The notes under the pieces: generated by a model
What the model was told of the DNA's origin: nothing
Database searches by the model: none
The model's input: only the letters and a program-made list of their open reading frames with translations
Position numbers and translations under genes: made by a program
Part shown: piece by piece, positions 17,339 through 25,997 of the stretch
How the letters are laid out: each line of letters begins with the position of its first letter
Position numbering within the stretch: the stretch's first letter is position 1
DNA from: Nitrospirae bacterium CG2_30_53_67
GTDB lineage: Bacteria > CG2-30-53-67
Direction of reading: 5' to 3'
Assembly (NCBI GenBank): GCA_001873285.1
Contig: MNYV01000029.1
Coordinates: 1-25,997 of the forward strand
Length of the DNA stretch: 25,997 nt

Positions 17339-20300
17339 ATGAAGGCAAAAACATTTTCAGTCAATCATTGGTTCATGCTGTTCAGTTTTTTCCTGATGGC
17401 TGTTTTCATTCATTCGTCTTATGCCTCGATGAACAGCGTAAGCATTGATACGGGGACGCCGGGCAGCCTGACCAACGTCACCATTTCACCGGACGGGGAT
17501 GGGACGGATGACCGGGCTAATGTTCATTTTACATCGGATGTGTCCGGGTCGTTCAAGGTGATGGTGGACACGAACGGCACACCGGGATTTCAGATGCCGG
17601 ACTGGTCGGATCCGAACTCGTGGCAGACATCGGATACGACCATGGAGGGCTGGGCCGGAGCCGGAGGACCCAATCAATTCATGTTCGAGGGGAGGGACAA
17701 CAAATGGCGTGTTCTTCCCAATGGGACGTATTCCATCAGGATCATGGTGGATGAAGACGGGGATTGGATCAATACGACGCTGGATCAGTCCATGGATAAT
17801 TCATTGACGGTTACCATCCAGACCGCCTCGATTTCAGGAAATGTGACCGCAGGGGGGAATCCGCTTCCCGGGGTCCATGTGAATGCCGGCTCGCAGTATG
17901 GCTGGGGAGATTCTGATACGGACTCAAGCGGAAACTACACCATTTCCGGCCTCAAGGCCGGCAGCTATCATGTCAATGCACAGAAGAGCGGGTACGTCTC
18001 TGCGGATTATCCCGGAGGAGACGTTGCCGTGACGGCGGGACAGAATACACCCGGCATCAATTTTACCATGTCCCCTTCGATCCTGGTTACAGGGGCCATT
18101 ACGATCCCCGCGGCTTTTACCAGTTTTGTCAACATGTGGGGAGGCATGGAGGACCAGCTCTGGATCAACATCAACGGCTGGACCGATGACGGATCCGACT
18201 GGGTCTGGGGCAATGCGCACATCCATGCAGCGGACGGCCAGTTCTGCCTGAACGCCCTGCCCGGAGATGATTTTGATAACGATGGAAAAGAAGATCCGGT
18301 CGAGTGCTCCAGTCCGACATCCACAACTTATTCACTCGATGTCAAACCACCGGCTTCAGGACAGACCAAGACCTACCATATCCGGGCCGAGGCCAATAAC
18401 TACGCCAGTGTGGAATATACCGTGACGGTGAATGGCAGCGGCGGCGCCCAGGACATCACCATGACCAAGGCCAGCCGGATTTTCGGGACCGTGACCCTGC
18501 CGTCCGCCAATGCGGGATCAACGCCGCTTTGGATCAATGTGAACGCAAGGACGGCGAGCGGGACCATGGCCTGGGGCGGGGGCTCCGTGGATATAGGCCA
18601 GACCCAGGGAAATTTCGACATCCGATCCGCCCTTGAAGGGACCTACACCGTGGAAGTTCAGGTCATGGGTTATAAGACCAGCAGTGTCTCCAGTGTTGTG
18701 GTCACCGCAGGTCAGGATACGGATTTAGGCAACATCAGCATCTCTCAGGGCGGGACCATCAGCGGGATCATCACCATCGCCGGAGACACCGGCAGTTATC
18801 AGATGTATCCTGGAGATCCCGGAACCCAGCCCATCATGCTTTGGGTGGACGCAGGATCTTCGGACGGCAGCGGATGGAGCGGGACCCAGGTGCAGATTCC
18901 CCGAGGGCTCAACCAGAGTGTCTCCTATACTATAGGCGGTCTGGGCGCCGGAACCTATGAAATCCATTCCTGGCTGGGAGAAGGGTATGAGCAGACCCCC
19001 ATGCCGCTGACGGCAACCCTGGCCGGGGACACCAGCAATGCGACCGGCGTGGATATGTCCTTTGCGCCTTATTCAGGAAAGATTACAGGGACCGTATCAG
19101 GAACGGGTCTGGATCTCTCCAAAGTGGTTGTGAGGGCCATGAAGGCCGGATGGGGATGGCAGCAGCCCGTAACAACCCAGCCTTCAGGAGACGGATCTTA
19201 TACGCTGACCGGTCTGGGGACCTCGGAATATATTCTTGAAGTCAATGAGTACGTCAATTCAGCGGATATGCTGAACGGCGCTCAGCCGATGCCTACCGGA
19301 AACTTCGGGACCGAGACAGTTAGAGTCCCGGTCACCAACGGCGAGACCACTTCCGGTCAGAACGTTACATTAAGCGCCGGAGGGGTTATTACCGGAAGCA
19401 TATCACTGGAGCCGGGCTACAGCGGGAGTGTGAACTTCAACACGGATCTCGTAGGCAAAATGGTGACCGCCATGCCCATGAAGATGGCCATGATGGGAGG
19501 ATCCTCGATGTTCATGGGACCGATCCTGCCCGACGGGACCTATACCATCTCCGGTCTGGGGGCAGGGGCGTACAGTGTCTCGCCTCCCACGGAACTGACC
19601 GATCAGATGGCGGGTTTCGATCCCAATGCACAGATGATGCAGGCGCCATTCGAGCCCGACATTGCGGCCGACAGCCGGATGGTCTCGGTATCCTCCGGAC
19701 AGACCAAGTCAGGGGTTGATTTCGTCCTATCTGACGGATATTCCGTGAGCGGGACCCTGACCCTTCCGGATATTCCGACAGGAGACCAGTGGAACTATGT
19801 ATGCGAAATTGAACTCCGGCATCCCCGAAAGGAAGGGATGGGCCGGCACATGCCGGTTTTTGTCAAGGATTTCAACGGGACCAAGACTTATTCCTTTACT
19901 CTGGAACATATCATGGACGGTGACTATGTGATCCAGGCCTGGTCCAATAACTACACCGTCGCCTACAAGAACATTTCCGTGAACGATAGCGACGTGGCCG
20001 GTGCGAACCTGGAATTAAAGAAAGGCGCCAGCATCACCGGTACGCTCGTCAATGCGAGCAGCGGCAAGGCTGTAACACCCTCTGACGGTATCCGGGTCCG
20101 CTGTGAGGCTTACCCCTGGGTAGAGGGGAGCTGGAGAGAAACCATGCAGGACCCCTGGTCCACCAGCCGGTTTACGGATCAGGGCGGCATCTATACCGGG
20201 GCATTCACCCTGGCCAATCTCCCAGCCGGGACCTATGTCGTGACCGTGGAAGCGGAACACGGCATGAAAGAGAACGGCGCCAAGAACTACATCGGGATCC

Positions 20301-22234
20301 GGAAGGCCGGTGTCGTGGTTCCTGAAACCTCGGGGGCCAGCGTGGATATCGGTACGCTGGAACTCCATGAAGGCGTTTCCATCAGCGGTACGGTAACGTC
20401 TGAATCCACCGGTGCGCCTTTGGGGAACATTGATGTTGAGGCCATGCCGGTGGACGGGAAGGACGGATCCACATCGGCTTTTGCCACCACGGACTCAAAA
20501 GGAAACTATACGATTTATGGCGTGGATCCCAACGTCAAATACTACACCGTGATTGCCGGCTCAAGGCCGGATTTCATGAAGTTCATCCCGGTGACCTGGG
20601 GTGAGGTGGAAAAGGACGTGGAAGTGGCATCCGCAGGTTTGACCGGTGTGGACTTTGCGCTCCCGGCTGCCAACGCCACGCTGTCCGGGACCATCCACAA
20701 GACCGGTAGTTCGCCGTGGATGCTCCCCTTCATGGAAGACGACATGCCGGCGCCCTTTATCCTGCTCCAGAAGCAGGGTGAAGTCTACTCGGACCCCATG
20801 GGCGGTATCGATACCATAGGAGAACCGAGTGACGGCGATACCACGACCTTCAGCATCAGCGGGATTGTTCCCGGAACGTACAATCTCAAGATCTTCAGCA
20901 GGGGATACACCACGAAGATCGTCCGGGGCATCGTGATTGCAGAAGGGGACAATGTCATCTCTACAGCCCTGGAATTGGTAGAAGGCGGGACGGTTTCCGG
21001 CTCGGTGGTCAAGGACGACGGGACCTATCCCACAACCTCCGAGGTTTCAGAAGTGGTTGCGGTCTCTGAGGATCTGGAGGTGCTGATCTTCGGGACCCTG
21101 ACGGCCAATGAGGCCTCTCGAGAGGTTTCGGCTTATTCCATCAGCGGGCTTGAGGCCGGGAAGTCCTATCGCCTGGTATTTATCAGCGAGGGCGATAAGG
21201 GGCCCGGCGAGGTCCATGTGATGCCGGACATGATCAGCGCGGGTAATACCTACAATGCCGTGCTCGGTGACAATGCCCCGATTATCACGGCCCGTGCCAA
21301 GAAGAATGCCGATGGGACTTTCTCCATCGGGATATTCAGCACCAGTTACTTTAATGATGCATCCGCATCGAACATCCTCTCCCTGAGTCAGGGAGGAGGA
21401 ACGCTCACGGCGACATTGGGACCGGACAAGATGACGATTGATGCCGGCTATACACCGGACGCAGCCGATACCATTTTCACTTTGGCATTGACGGCGCATT
21501 ACGGCAAGAACAACAACACGGTCAGCGCGTCCTTCTCCTATGACGTGAACTCCACGGCATGGAACCAGGGGACCGTGAACACCCTGATGGGCGGCATGGT
21601 CGGTCTGGGGCAGGGCGACAAGTCCAAGGTCTTCATGGAACCTGGAGACGTCACGGATGGAGACGGCGACGGCGTATCAACCGTGACCATGCAGAAAGAC
21701 GATTCAGGTGTCAGCGGGAACGGCGTGCATGCCAATTCCGTAGAGAGGAGATCCCTCCTGGCTGAAGCTACGGACCCGCTTCCTGCCGGTGCCACGGCGG
21801 CGAGCGCCCTGTATGATATCGCGCTTCCCTCAGGAGATTCAATCACAACGGGCGCATCGGTGACGGTATCACTCCAGTACAATGACTCAGTGACCGACAC
21901 GACCAACCTGCACATCTACCACTTTACCGGCGGAGCGTGGGTTGCCGAGGACACCAACCTGACCATTGATACCGTGAACAAGACCCTCACCGCGGACGTA
22001 ACCAGCCTATCGCCATTCCAGGTGGTTACGGCCTCCTCGGTGGATACGCCTGCGGACACGCCTGCAGATACGCCTGCGGCAGTCTCAAGCGGCGGGGGCG
22101 GAGGAGGAGGATGCAGCCTCGCATCGAATCCTGTCTCCATGCCTAACGGCATAGGGGAGACGGCGTTGATGATTCTGCCTCTGTTGGTCCTTGTCTTGAT
22201 GAAGTTAAGGAGGCGGTCTCAGGATCAGAATTGA
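17339..22234 (+). CDS. Giant surface/exported repeat protein with Gly7-Cys C-terminal sorting signal
   Basis: A 1631-residue protein. The signal peptide is likely cut after SYA (29). A FlgD-Ig-like domain follows (about 31-160, with ISPDGDGTDDRANVHF). Then come about 11 carboxypeptidase-regulatory-like beta-sandwich modules, each opening with a pattern such as SISGNVT, RIFGTVTLP, VSISGTVTSESTG or ATLSGTIHKTG and often containing GNYTISGLKAGSYHV-like turns. A C-terminal beta domain ends SLSPFQVV, and a DTPADTPADTPA linker leads to seven Gly and Cys1592 (codon 22112-22114). A short spacer, a hydrophobic helix (ALMILPLLVLVLMK) and Leu-Arg3 close it. Gly-rich plus Cys, helix and Arg cluster is the layout of Cys-type CTERM sorting signals. 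AAGGAG precedes ATG. Role is unknown; adhesion, polymer binding or a structural surface layer are possible. Confidence 0.82.
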   Translation: MKAKTFSVNHWFMLFSFFLMAVFIHSSYASMNSVSIDTGTPGSLTNVTISPDGDGTDDRANVHFTSDVSGSFKVMVDTNGTPGFQMPDWSDPNSWQTSDTTMEGWAGAGGPNQFMFEGRDNKWRVLPNGTYSIRIMVDEDGDWINTTLDQSMDNSLTVTIQTASISGNVTAGGNPLPGVHVNAGSQYGWGDSDTDSSGNYTISGLKAGSYHVNAQKSGYVSADYPGGDVAVTAGQNTPGINFTMSPSILVTGAITIPAAFTSFVNMWGGMEDQLWININGWTDDGSDWVWGNAHIHAADGQFCLNALPGDDFDNDGKEDPVECSSPTSTTYSLDVKPPASGQTKTYHIRAEANNYASVEYTVTVNGSGGAQDITMTKASRIFGTVTLPSANAGSTPLWINVNARTASGTMAWGGGSVDIGQTQGNFDIRSALEGTYTVEVQVMGYKTSSVSSVVVTAGQDTDLGNISISQGGTISGIITIAGDTGSYQMYPGDPGTQPIMLWVDAGSSDGSGWSGTQVQIPRGLNQSVSYTIGGLGAGTYEIHSWLGEGYEQTPMPLTATLAGDTSNATGVDMSFAPYSGKITGTVSGTGLDLSKVVVRAMKAGWGWQQPVTTQPSGDGSYTLTGLGTSEYILEVNEYVNSADMLNGAQPMPTGNFGTETVRVPVTNGETTSGQNVTLSAGGVITGSISLEPGYSGSVNFNTDLVGKMVTAMPMKMAMMGGSSMFMGPILPDGTYTISGLGAGAYSVSPPTELTDQMAGFDPNAQMMQAPFEPDIAADSRMVSVSSGQTKSGVDFVLSDGYSVSGTLTLPDIPTGDQWNYVCEIELRHPRKEGMGRHMPVFVKDFNGTKTYSFTLEHIMDGDYVIQAWSNNYTVAYKNISVNDSDVAGANLELKKGASITGTLVNASSGKAVTPSDGIRVRCEAYPWVEGSWRETMQDPWSTSRFTDQGGIYTGAFTLANLPAGTYVVTVEAEHGMKENGAKNYIGIRKAGVVVPETSGASVDIGTLELHEGVSISGTVTSESTGAPLGNIDVEAMPVDGKDGSTSAFATTDSKGNYTIYGVDPNVKYYTVIAGSRPDFMKFIPVTWGEVEKDVEVASAGLTGVDFALPAANATLSGTIHKTGSSPWMLPFMEDDMPAPFILLQKQGEVYSDPMGGIDTIGEPSDGDTTTFSISGIVPGTYNLKIFSRGYTTKIVRGIVIAEGDNVISTALELVEGGTVSGSVVKDDGTYPTTSEVSEVVAVSEDLEVLIFGTLTANEASREVSAYSISGLEAGKSYRLVFISEGDKGPGEVHVMPDMISAGNTYNAVLGDNAPIITARAKKNADGTFSIGIFSTSYFNDASASNILSLSQGGGTLTATLGPDKMTIDAGYTPDAADTIFTLALTAHYGKNNNTVSASFSYDVNSTAWNQGTVNTLMGGMVGLGQGDKSKVFMEPGDVTDGDGDGVSTVTMQKDDSGVSGNGVHANSVERRSLLAEATDPLPAGATAASALYDIALPSGDSITTGASVTVSLQYNDSVTDTTNLHIYHFTGGAWVAEDTNLTIDTVNKTLTADVTSLSPFQVVTASSVDTPADTPADTPAAVSSGGGGGGGCSLASNPVSMPNGIGETALMILPLLVLVLMKLRRRSQDQN

Positions 22235-22258: not shown

Positions 22259-22290
22259 AAAGGGGCAGGACTCAGATCCTGCCCCTTTAT
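22259..22290. terminator. Strong bidirectional intrinsic terminator
   Basis: AAAGGGGCAGGA (22259-22270) pairs perfectly over 12 bases with TCCTGCCCCTTT (22277-22288), with a six-base loop and then ATTTTCT on the plus strand. It lies 24 bases after the giant repeat gene. Read on the minus strand it overlaps the gspM stop codon and is followed by T-rich sequence, so it can end both convergent operons. Confidence 0.88.
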
Positions 22291-23246
22291 TTTCTACTAT
22301 CACCGCCCTGAAGAAGGGTTCCCACGGAAAGGGTCGCTTCGAGTCCACTCTGGTCTTTTCCTGTAATCATCTTCAGGTTCTTGATATACAGCAAGTCTTC
22401 CGAACTTTCGATCTGATAAAGAAAACGAGTCAAATCATCAATCTTGATATTCTCGAGTTTGATCTCGGCCAGGGATTCCCGGAACTGCCCGACAGGGTTC
22501 TCACGCTGGGGCCTGATGTAGGTGATCTTGTCCTTGACTTCGGCCTTTGTGGCCAGTTGTTCCAGGTATGAGAAAACAGAGAATCCCTGCCCGCGCTGAT
22601 CTATGATTTTTTTGATTTGTTCCATCCCTCCACGGTCTTGTACAACAGAGGATTGGAGCCGGACCATTTCGGAGAGTTCCGTTTTCTTCTTCTGGATTTT
22701 GATGTTGATCAATTCATTATTTTGAAACATGGGGTCCATGACCCATGTGTAAAAGGCAAGAACGGAAAGGAAGATGAGTCCGGAGAGGACGATACGCTGC
22801 TCTCGGGCGCTCAATTCCTGGTAGTAGTGGAAAATGCGCTGGAACAAAGGTTGTTGCCGTATCTGGTCCAGAAGACGGGCATATATGGATTTTTTCTCGT
22901 GAGTCTCCGGACTCGGAATCAAGGGCGGCCCGGAATAAGGAGCGGATTCTTGTATGGGGGACGCCCCGACGGGAATCGTTTCATCGAGGTTCTCGGCAGT
23001 TCCTTCCGGCGCATGCGGTGTTTCGGCCGCCCGTCCGGGAGCCTGTTCACCGGATGTGACTTGTTCCGAGACGTCCCCGGATTCGTTCGTGACCTTGAAG
23101 ATATGTTTTTCTTCAGGGGCCGTATCTGAAGCGTCATGGGCGCTCTGTTCATCGATCCTGGGGGCGCCTTCCAGGAGGGCTTCCCATCCTTTGGGATCCA
23201 GATTCATTTTTGCTTTCTTTCGAAGAGAGTCTTCCTTGTCAGTCAT
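22287..23246 (-). CDS. gspM: Type II secretion system protein M with long N-terminal extension
   Basis: GspM is a single-pass inner-membrane protein that partners GspL in the T2SS assembly platform. In this 319-residue protein the GspM core begins near residue 143 (YQELSAREQRIVLSGLIFL), with the transmembrane helix at about 152-170, a coiled-coil and a periplasmic ferredoxin-like part (FSYLEQLATKAEV ... LENIKIDDLTRFLYQIESSE). Usual GspM proteins are about 160-180 residues. The extra 140 are cytoplasmic, Pro/Glu/Ser-rich and probably disordered, and start with a basic tip (DSLRKKAKMN). ATG 23246 is chosen because it overlaps the ParA stop as ATGACTGA; an upstream in-frame start at 23261 is possible. 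It is the last gene of the operon, and its stop lies in the terminator. Confidence 0.8.
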   Translation of the reverse strand: MTDKEDSLRKKAKMNLDPKGWEALLEGAPRIDEQSAHDASDTAPEEKHIFKVTNESGDVSEQVTSGEQAPGRAAETPHAPEGTAENLDETIPVGASPIQESAPYSGPPLIPSPETHEKKSIYARLLDQIRQQPLFQRIFHYYQELSAREQRIVLSGLIFLSVLAFYTWVMDPMFQNNELINIKIQKKKTELSEMVRLQSSVVQDRGGMEQIKKIIDQRGQGFSVFSYLEQLATKAEVKDKITYIRPQRENPVGQFRESLAEIKLENIKIDDLTRFLYQIESSEDLLYIKNLKMITGKDQSGLEATLSVGTLLQGGDSRK

Positions 23247-24000
23247 GGAGCAATACCTCAATAGCCAGGTGCCGGTAATGCAGGGCTCCGGGCGAGTTGG
23301 CCGAGTATTTGATGACCGGTTTCCGGTAAAGTTCAGCCTCGCTCAGGGTGATGTTTCTCGGTATCAATGTGGTAAAGAGCTTGTCCCCGAAGGTCTGCTT
23401 GATCTCATGATAGAGAATCCTGTGCAAAGTCGTCTTTTTGTCGAACATGGTGATCAGGACTCCCATGAGATTGATTTGATGCCCGAGCTGCTGATGAATG
23501 GTGCTGATCATCTTGTTCAGCATATCGAATCCTTTAATGGCATAATATTTGGCCTCCGTCGGGATGATGATGTCGCTTGACGCCAGGAGGGCGTTTAAGC
23601 TTAAAATCCCGAGAGACGGAGGACAATCAATGATGACGAAGTCGTAATCTCCGTTGATCTCCTTCAGCGCGTTTCTCAGGATATAAGGTCTGGAATTCCT
23701 GCCGGCCAATCGGACTTCACAGCCGGCCAGGTTCATATGAGCCGGGAGCAGGTCCAGGGTCTCCATCATGGTCCGGCGCCGGACTTCGCTGACCTTGGTC
23801 TTTTCATCCATGATGAGGTCATAAACCGTCTTGTCCAGCGTGTCAGGATCCACATTCAGCCCGATGCTTGCATTGGCCTGCGAATCCATGTCGATCAGCA
23901 ATACCCGCTGTCCCAGTTCCGCCAGGCACGCAGAGAGGTTGATGGCCGTCGTGGTCTTCCCGATCCCTCCTTTCTGGTTGATGATGGAAATGGACCTCAT
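23239..24000 (-). CDS. ParA/Soj-family ATPase within a type II secretion operon
   Basis: A 253-residue deviant-Walker-A ATPase. It shows KGGIGKTT (10-17, with the signature Lys10), the A-prime motif VLLIDMDSQ (33-41), the Walker B segment FVIIDCPPSLG, and ALLASSDIIIPTEAKYYAIK, all typical of ParA/Soj. Such ATPases position plasmids, chromosomes or large protein machines by ATP-dependent dimerisation on DNA or membrane. No parB-like gene adjoins. ATG 24000 puts the P-loop at the usual distance from the N-terminus. A GTG at 24090 would add 30 unrelated residues but shorten the gap to gspL to 10 bases, so the start is not certain. It lies between gspL and gspM in the same direction and overlaps gspM by eight bases. 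A role in placing the secretion machine is inferred. Confidence 0.88.
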   Translation of the reverse strand: MRSISIINQKGGIGKTTTAINLSACLAELGQRVLLIDMDSQANASIGLNVDPDTLDKTVYDLIMDEKTKVSEVRRRTMMETLDLLPAHMNLAGCEVRLAGRNSRPYILRNALKEINGDYDFVIIDCPPSLGILSLNALLASSDIIIPTEAKYYAIKGFDMLNKMISTIHQQLGHQINLMGVLITMFDKKTTLHRILYHEIKQTFGDKLFTTLIPRNITLSEAELYRKPVIKYSANSPGALHYRHLAIEVLLHD

Positions 24001-24100
24001 ACGATCTTGCCGCCAAGAATTTTCTCCTGAGATGATTCCTGTTCGGAGCGGGGAAAGACCCGCCGCCTCTTGATGCGCTTCATCATCCACGGGGTTGATA

Positions 24101-25645
24101 TCATGTTCCTTTGAATACGATTTTTATTTGAAAGTTGACATGGCTTTTGTCATTGTCCACCTTTGCATTGCTGACATTGACCTGATCTAAGATTTCCGAC
24201 TTTTTCAGCTCCTGTTCGATCCGGTTGACGGAATTGAAGGAATCCGTCCATCCGACGAAGCGGAGGGACTTATCGTCAAGGGTCAGGTCCGTGACCGCAA
24301 GCTCCAGATCAGCCGGGATCCGGACGCTGATCTCGTTTAGAATATCCAGGGCTGAAGGCTTTGCGCCGAAAACGTTTCTGAAGATCTCATTCTGTTTTTC
24401 AACCTCCTTGATATGGAGCTTCATCTGTTCTAATTCATTCACCACATTTTTGACATCGGGAAATGTTTCCTGAAGGATATGGCGGGTCTCTTTCTTTAAC
24501 TGGTTGTAATAGTGGCCCTTGGCTTGAATGCCGATGAAGTAGTCCACGAAGGATAGGAGAATAAAAAATCCCAGGATGGCTGCCGCATGGCGGATCTCCT
24601 TTTTTGATTCCATGATCCTGGAGATCATAGAGAATTTCTTTTTTCTGAAGGCGCATTTCAATGCATCCTTTCCCCCCTCCATCAGAGCCATCCCCAGAGG
24701 AGAATGGATCCCGGTCAGGTGATCTTTTCTCACCAGGTCATGAGGCAGGGCGGTCAGGGGATCGGTGATCTCGGTTTGGATGGACAACTCCTTTTCAAGG
24801 AGGGGGGGAAGCAGATGGATGCCCGGCCGGTCTCCGGTGACGTAGGCCTCCGACGGGGCCTTGGCGGAGGATCGGAGGAGATAAGTCCGGATACTCTTCC
24901 CGGCCTGGGAAGCGAGGGCCAATGGTTCCTGACCCAGGATATTGAGGAGTTCAGTGGTTTCGAGCGGGTTGACATCCCGAAGCCGTTCGGAGAGGGTTTG
25001 AGGATCCGTCCCTGTTTTCTCCTGGAGCCTTCCGAACAGGGCTTCAAGGCCCCAGCTGAGTCGTTGAATGTGTCCTGGAATCCCCCCTTCATACAGCGAA
25101 AGAAGGGTGTAATTCGATGAAACATGCAGGTGAAGACAGGAGCGGTCCTTCCGGATCCTTTGTGTTTGAAAGAGCGCGTTGGCTGCCGCAAGCGAAGAGA
25201 CGACGATCATGTTCAGAGGGATTCCCGCCTCTTCGAAGAGGGCGCTCCGCTGGTCCAGGATGGATCGGGGAAGGGCATAGACCAGAAGGTCGCTTTTCCC
25301 TTTTTCCTGCCTGATCATCCGGTAACAGGTTTCGAGGTCCTGAATCGGGAAGGGGACCAGGGGTTCGAGTTCATAGAGGATGACCTTGTCGATTTTAGAC
25401 CTCTCCCTGAATGGGACCGTGATCTGCCTGGTGATCAGCATGTCACCCGGCACAGACGCCACAACGCTCTCTCTCTGGATCTGATGTTCAGAGAAGAAGA
25501 GCGAGAGCGCATCCGGCGTGAGGGAGTCCCCGTCTATGACCTCCTCCATGAAGCGGAGAATCCGGACCAGCTTGCGCTGGACGGAGATTTCCACCGCCTG
25601 GATCCCGTATGCGTTGATCTCAATTCCCGTGATGATTCTCGCCAT
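24101..25645 (-). CDS. gspL: Type II secretion system protein L
   Basis: GspL recruits the secretion ATPase GspE to the inner membrane. The 514-residue protein has an actin-like cytoplasmic domain of the PilM/GspL type (about 1-300, beginning RIITGIEINAYGIQAVEIS and including KVILYELEPLVPFPIQDLE). A transmembrane helix follows near 352-372 (AAILGFFILLSFVDYFIGIQ), then a periplasmic PilN-like part with a coiled-coil (NELEQMKLHIKEVEKQNEIF) and a ferredoxin-like end (ILNEISVRIPADLELAVTDL). It is longer than the roughly 400 residues of enterobacterial GspL, in effect a PilM-PilN fusion. AAAGG lies about six bases before ATG 25645. It follows gspK by 24 bases and precedes the ParA gene. Confidence 0.85.
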   Translation of the reverse strand: MARIITGIEINAYGIQAVEISVQRKLVRILRFMEEVIDGDSLTPDALSLFFSEHQIQRESVVASVPGDMLITRQITVPFRERSKIDKVILYELEPLVPFPIQDLETCYRMIRQEKGKSDLLVYALPRSILDQRSALFEEAGIPLNMIVVSSLAAANALFQTQRIRKDRSCLHLHVSSNYTLLSLYEGGIPGHIQRLSWGLEALFGRLQEKTGTDPQTLSERLRDVNPLETTELLNILGQEPLALASQAGKSIRTYLLRSSAKAPSEAYVTGDRPGIHLLPPLLEKELSIQTEITDPLTALPHDLVRKDHLTGIHSPLGMALMEGGKDALKCAFRKKKFSMISRIMESKKEIRHAAAILGFFILLSFVDYFIGIQAKGHYYNQLKKETRHILQETFPDVKNVVNELEQMKLHIKEVEKQNEIFRNVFGAKPSALDILNEISVRIPADLELAVTDLTLDDKSLRFVGWTDSFNSVNRIEQELKKSEILDQVNVSNAKVDNDKSHVNFQIKIVFKGT

Positions 25646-25669
25646 TATGACCTTTTCATCCGCTTTTTA

Positions 25670-25997
25670 TCACTCTTCCCGCCAATACACGATGCTAACA
25701 TTATTATTCTTCCTTTGCAAGACTGCATGAACGAATTTTGTTACCTTATGGACTCGGACTGTGACGTAAGCCGAAAAATAGGCCGATTTTACGTCCCACA
25801 ACTCCTGCGGCACGCTGGATGCCCCGGGGAACTCCTGCTTAATATAGGTTGCAAAATCCTGCGTGGATTTGAAAGGGGCATCTTTACGGTATTCGGCAAG
25901 GGTCTCTCCGTCGATTCCGTCTGCGAGGGCGCTCAGGACCTGGGGGGGGGCCGTGTTCACATTGATCTTCCCGCCGCTCCAAACCGTGAAGATATCC
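25670..25997 (-). CDS. gspK: Type II secretion system minor pseudopilin K, C-terminal part (partial)
   Basis: GspK is the large tip pseudopilin of the T2SS. Only the last 109 residues are here; the frame is open to the window edge. They include DIFTVWSGG followed by KINVNTAPPQVLSALADGID, the conserved GspK motif after the helix-hairpin-helix-like region, and the closing strand segment SAYFSAYVTVRVHKVTKFVH. An in-frame GTG at 25960 is an internal valine codon, not a start. The gene ends 24 bases before gspL. The order K-L matches canonical T2SS operons, so E to J are expected outside the window on the right. Confidence 0.85.
   Translation of the reverse strand, partial: DIFTVWSGGKINVNTAPPQVLSALADGIDGETLAEYRKDAPFKSTQDFATYIKQEFPGASSVPQELWDVKSAYFSAYVTVRVHKVTKFVHAVLQRKNNNVSIVYWREE

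Follow-up and report, generated by a model that had tools for sequence, protein, structure and literature searches.

The locus considered here raises the question of why a complete ATPase of the ParA class should be encoded inside a type II secretion system (T2SS) operon. ParA-type ATPases elsewhere position chromosomes and organelles, and, to our knowledge, the placement and distribution of T2SSs in cells are poorly understood.

Organization and spread of the ATPase-bearing operon

The window, i.e. the whole stretch of DNA analysed, is one entire contig of 25,997 bp from a genome of 2.36 Mb (95% complete, 183 contigs). At its end, the minus strand encodes gspK, gspL, a complete Soj-class ParA and gspM, in that order:

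25670-25997, minus strand: GspK, 3' part only, cut by the contig end (PF03934; C-terminal part of NF037980; full length in locus L121)
24101-25645, minus strand: GspL, 514 aa, with PilM-like and PilN-like domains (PF11104 and PF05137; position after gspK)
23239-24000, minus strand: ParA/Soj-class ATPase, 253 aa, between gspL and gspM (AAA_31, E=1e-60; AlphaFold2/Foldseek; family alignment)
22287-23246, minus strand: GspM, 319 aa, with a cytoplasmic N-terminal extension of ~150 residues before a single TM (PF04612)
23157-23246, minus strand: GspM residues 1-30, a near-invariant peptide, candidate ParA-docking/activating motif (identity, pN, predicted helices)
23172-23195, minus strand: PKGWEALL core of the GspM N-terminal peptide
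22812-23156, minus strand: GspM residues 31-145, a mostly disordered, fast-evolving P/E/S/A-rich linker (pLDDT, low identity)
22259-22288, strand not assigned: terminator-like 12-bp hairpin and T-run, operon end (pattern match only)

The operon shows the components expected of type II secretion: T2SSC with a PDZ domain, a Secretin (GspD) with N0, T2SSE, T2SSF and T2SSK are encoded in L121, and L and M in the window. The fullest order, where contigs permit, is gspC-D-E-F-G/H-I-J-K-L-ParA-M. GspL of the window scores 42 bits against TIGR01709, under the cut-off of 65, and GspM scores 30.9 bits against PF04612 (cut-off 27.8). The operon probably ends after gspM, since a terminator-like hairpin follows it. 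The ParA frame could be extended to a GTG at 24090; the alignment of all six relatives, however, begins at the ATG at 24000, which speaks against the longer form. The original prediction had placed a full ATPase between L and M on the same strand, overlapping gspM by eight bases; the AAA_31 domain, the deviant Walker A motif (KGGIGKT) and the K-L-ParA-M order bear this out, as does the start of GspM at ATG 23246, which gives an 8-bp overlap with ParA (ATGACTGA). The same overlap is present in four of the six family genomes, and a gap of 45-48 bp takes its place in genus g3.

Convergent with the operon, the window encodes a secreted 1631-aa protein with CarboxypepD_reg repeats (17339-22234, plus strand), the tail of which (GGGGGGG-TM-RRR) resembles a GlyGly-CTERM sorting signal. 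It also adjoins the T2SS in three further genomes (G001, G003, G005), not in two others (G002/G004), and is a possible T2SS substrate. No match above cut-off to a rhombosortase for this protein was found in the genomes of the window's family.

A GspL search of 60 genomes recovered close relatives in a congeneric genome and in four others from the family. The K-L-ParA-M order recurs in all six genomes examined of the window's family (f1), spanning three genera, so that the arrangement is neither a one-genome oddity, the outcome that would have told against the original prediction, nor an assembly artefact. Within the sister family of the same class (f2), one genome has GspL directly followed by GspM, without ParA, and in a second the contig breaks inside gspL. 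Beyond the family, no ParA-type match was found near GspK in any of 45 genomes chosen for strong GspK matches (the closest on one contig lies 105 kb off), a survey whose coverage is restricted by contig breaks and whose GspK matches may include some related proteins. Conversely, at the 76 further ParA loci taken from 84,980 species genomes, T2SS genes were never neighbours of ParA. These counts (0/45 and 0/76) reject an overlooked, widespread T2SS feature. Thus, as far as sampled, the arrangement is a family-level trait, confined to a single, little-known family of uncultured bacteria.

Within that family the linkage is kept even though GspL identity ranges from 50 to 78%; the ParA is 68-87% identical across the six genomes. 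ParA is under strong purifying selection and more constrained than its neighbours: in three within-genus pairs its dN/dS is 0.06-0.08, as against 0.13-0.18 for GspL. Given these ParA values and the order shared by all six genomes, the arrangement is not due to chance.

An extended GspM with a constrained N-terminal peptide

The second distinctive element of these systems is GspM itself. PF04612 aligns to the window protein solely from residue 145 on and its TM lies at 151-171; at seven other T2SS loci the TM of GspM falls within approximately the first 35 residues. GspM open frames span 332-351 aa in the family, and 57 of the 59 outside it that score over the cut-off are at most 249 aa long (median 197). 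The two long frames outside the family (G182 and G064; L206 and L207), without ParA nearby, were rejected as high-GC artefacts; stop-free frames run over gspM in these two genomes, and frame length is a poor guide to extension there. The cytoplasmic extension of ~150 residues is thus seen only in ParA-bearing T2SSs, in exactly the same genomes.

The first 30 residues of this tail form a near-invariant peptide (MTDKEDxLRKKAKxNLDPKGWEALLEG). Their mean pairwise identity is 0.80, as against 0.28-0.38 over the next 115 residues, with 71% in the periplasmic domain. At equal synonymous divergence, pN is 0.014-0.043 for residues 1-30 versus 0.20-0.35 for residues 31-140. AlphaFold2 predicts helices at 3-14 and 18-25 with modest confidence, and pLDDT falls below 50 across most of residues 24-119 in the linker. 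Partners of ParA/MinD ATPases, cargo components included, act through charged N-terminal peptides (PMC10241942), and GspM displays the anatomy of such a partner: a conserved, helix-forming, charged/aliphatic N-terminal peptide on a flexible tether.

The peptide core, KGWEALL, further resembles the ParB core of the same genomes, KGLSALI, and hhalign pairs exactly these residues; the ParB-type motif reads LG[KR]GLxxLI. A hand-made core pattern applied to the first 45 residues of 1,493 proteins retrieves the ParBs, the GspMs of the family and one other protein; this pattern was written after GspM had been seen. GspM ranks ~400 of 1276 with a PSSM built from ParBs only, and 43 out of 200 controls with shuffled columns do as well in the profile test; neither result is significant. 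The profile test itself works, since the partner of a third ParA in these genomes (see below) matches the ParB motif clearly, at 93% probability. As a statistical claim, therefore, a ParB-like motif in GspM is unsupported by both tests, and we treat the likeness as a resemblance only. A search for a second copy of the peptide in the genome gave an E 0.02 match inside a TolC-like outer-membrane protein, judged to be chance. Anatomy, co-occurrence and constraint, as opposed to proven homology, make the GspM peptide a candidate partner peptide.

The ATPase and its predicted role in the secretion system

The ParA model (AlphaFold2, pLDDT 89) matches Soj/ParA structures with Foldseek TM of 0.94-0.97, and the T2SS ParAs are ~40-44% identical to Soj. 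All six preserve the Walker A' lysines and the D/D/N of Motif 2, together with the catalytic and dimerisation residues as mapped from work on ParA-ParB of M. xanthus (PMC12462528). The M. xanthus protein receives the ParB helix in a pocket that includes V116, L150, L152, L155, L192 and Y81 (PMC12462528). In the T2SS ParAs, the hydrophobic positions V116, L150, L152 (I/V), L155 and L192 are the same or similar, and L187 is replaced by T or A; at the ParB-arginine site Y81 is retained, D stands in for E82 (likewise in Soj), and E117 shows no conservation. Most of the partner-binding pocket is kept.

The DNA-binding face presents a different picture. The arginines implicated in non-specific DNA binding (Bs R189/R218, Cc R195/R224) are not retained as a set: T or S replaces the canonical DNA-contact arginine (Mx R238, Cc R224) in all six T2SS ParAs, and the second (Cc R195) is basic in four and lost in genus g2. 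Basic residues are gained at Cc positions 200, 232 and 237 in all six. The nucleoid-binding face is thus rewired, and loss of the canonical arginine calls for caution over a positioning role, with the qualification that DNA-contact residues vary among family members and are not required of each (PMC7229837). A C-terminal membrane-targeting amphipathic helix of the MinD/FlhG type is absent, the T2SS ParA ending three residues past its last core helix, and its score against the minD_bact equivalog is 55.7 bits (cut-off 212.9).

We propose, with a probability of roughly 0.55, that this ParA-type ATPase serves the T2SS alone, positioning or distributing it, and that its partner is a subunit of the machine, GspM; we infer that the two touch, that a matrix is involved and that positioning takes place. 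Under this proposal, ParA would bind ATP, dimerise and associate with a matrix, either nucleoid DNA via the rewired basic face or another surface. It is about an even bet that the T2SS thereby has its own ParA positioning module, GspM having turned cargo adaptor via a tail tipped with a ParA-activating peptide. In support stand the operon linkage, the catalytic residues, the conservation of the pocket, the co-occurring GspM tail and the purifying selection; the lost DNA arginine, the changes at L187 and E117, the non-significant likeness of the peptide to ParB and the occurrence in a single family would argue against it.

Known systems offer partial parallels. Within the type IV filament superfamily, TadZ of the Tad pili comes closest as a precedent: it too is a member of the ParA/MinD superfamily, is encoded alongside a filament machine of this type and acts in polar localisation. 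TadZ, however, belongs to another, FleN-like subfamily with an atypical Walker A, linked to Tad and archaeal T4P and not to other bacterial systems (PMC6668835); the ATPase described here lies in a T2SS operon in place of a Tad locus, has the KGGIGKT motif and is Soj-like. The pairs McdA/McdB and PomZ/PomX, along with PpfA/TlpT and ParC, in which ParA-type ATPases position protein cargos, share with the present case a dedicated ParA encoded with its cargo and an N-terminal partner peptide (PMC10241942). They differ in that the partner proposed here, through a predicted contact, would be an integral membrane subunit of the secretion apparatus.

The cellulose secretion complex depends on BcsQ, and flagellar number is under the control of FlhG. 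The main rival proposal is that the T2SS ParA is an assembly or activity factor of this kind, which would dock on the GspM/GspL platform and govern how the system assembles, its copy number or the GspE motor, with no matrix gradient. We regard this as possible though rather unlikely. It would account for the loss of the canonical nucleoid-binding arginine in all six genomes alongside retained partner-binding features, and for the position of parA between two genes for cytoplasm-facing platform proteins. The gene for BcsQ (BcsRQ), another ParA/MinD-like ATPase, likewise accompanies those of an envelope export machine, and the fold search also retrieved BcsQ structures, though with a weaker match (TM ~0.75) than Soj. 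However, the T2SS ParA scores only 64 bits against TIGR03371 (cut-off 158), no BcsR-like gene is present in the T2SS operon, and both sequence and fold are nearest to Soj and not to BcsQ or FlhG. Moreover, the basic residues gained lie in the same strip and would be compatible with retained DNA binding, and the known variability of DNA-contact residues noted above weakens the argument from the lost arginine.

Still less probable is an orphan ParA that hitchhikes in the operon with a T2SS-unrelated role, such as gene regulation or back-up segregation; the linkage would then reflect nothing but co-transcription, and the GspM tail would be otherwise employed. ParA genes are indeed common and mobile, and each family genome has two other Soj-class ParAs. 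Nevertheless, the linkage has been kept over the GspL divergence given above, through three genera and with differing ParA-gspM junctions, and the GspM tail occurs in exactly the same genomes.

If the positioning proposal is true, a major secretion machine joins the cargos of ParA-type ATPases, and by a short evolutionary route: one gene inserted and one subunit extended with a docking tail. It would also provide a compact ATPase/peptide pair, open to testing in vitro and as a positioning tag that can be transplanted. We found no paper describing a ParA within a T2SS and no dedicated T2SS positioning ATPase in the papers searched, a search mostly without subscription papers and thus not proof of absence.

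Separation from chromosome partitioning and other ParAs of the family

That the T2SS ParA is simply the usual chromosomal Soj of ParABS, with parB elsewhere, is very improbable and for practical purposes rejected: its fold and its identity to Soj would fit, but the family genomes have their own Soj-ParB pair (close to a perfect parS in the window's genome), the T2SS ParAs fall outside the Soj clade, and the window is devoid of parS.

In detail, no ParB_N gene occurs in the window and the genome's sole copy lies on contig C83 beside Soj, as the original prediction had it in stating that no parB-like gene was near; in all but one of the family genomes, where this was checked, a ParB_N gene adjoins the Soj homologue. 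The perfect parS (TGTTCCACGTGGAACA) lies ~3 kb from the Soj-ParB pair on C83, and the window has no parS-like site even when two mismatches are allowed. More precisely, the perfect palindrome and a one-mismatch copy are found upstream of soj-parB (G000:C83:23271-23286 and 25846-25861), near mnmE/gidA/gidB, the usual surroundings of an origin region. A tree of 88 ParAs groups the six T2SS proteins in a clade of their own (SH-aLRT 99) and sets them apart from the clade (98) that holds the Soj proteins of these genomes, a placement opposite to that which would have undermined the original prediction. Branching within the T2SS ParA clade follows the genera and thus fits vertical descent. A simple partition role is excluded by the Soj-ParB-parS set elsewhere in the genome, and the earlier view that chromosome partitioning is unlikely is upheld by that set and by the tree. 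Compared with Soj/ParA of ParABS systems (T. thermophilus Soj, H. pylori ParA and M. xanthus ParA), the T2SS ParA is alike in fold, Walker A'/catalytic residues, partner pocket, length and lack of an HTH. It differs in its T2SS operon context, a locus without ParB/parS, T/S in place of the DNA arginine and its separate clade.

The T2SS ParA clade joins a third, family-specific ParA weakly (84, long branches). This third Soj-class ParA is present in every genome of the family (L183, 7418-9677, G000:C17; counterparts L184-L188), carries a C-terminal AMPK1_CBM (glycogen-recognition) domain and has His replacing the Motif 2 Asn. Its neighbour, near groES/groEL, combines a ParB-like N-terminal motif (MSGRRLGRGLEEISHVFL) with a fused, degenerate MinD/ParA-like domain. 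The two look like another ParA/partner pair, with a cargo that is perhaps glycogen-related.
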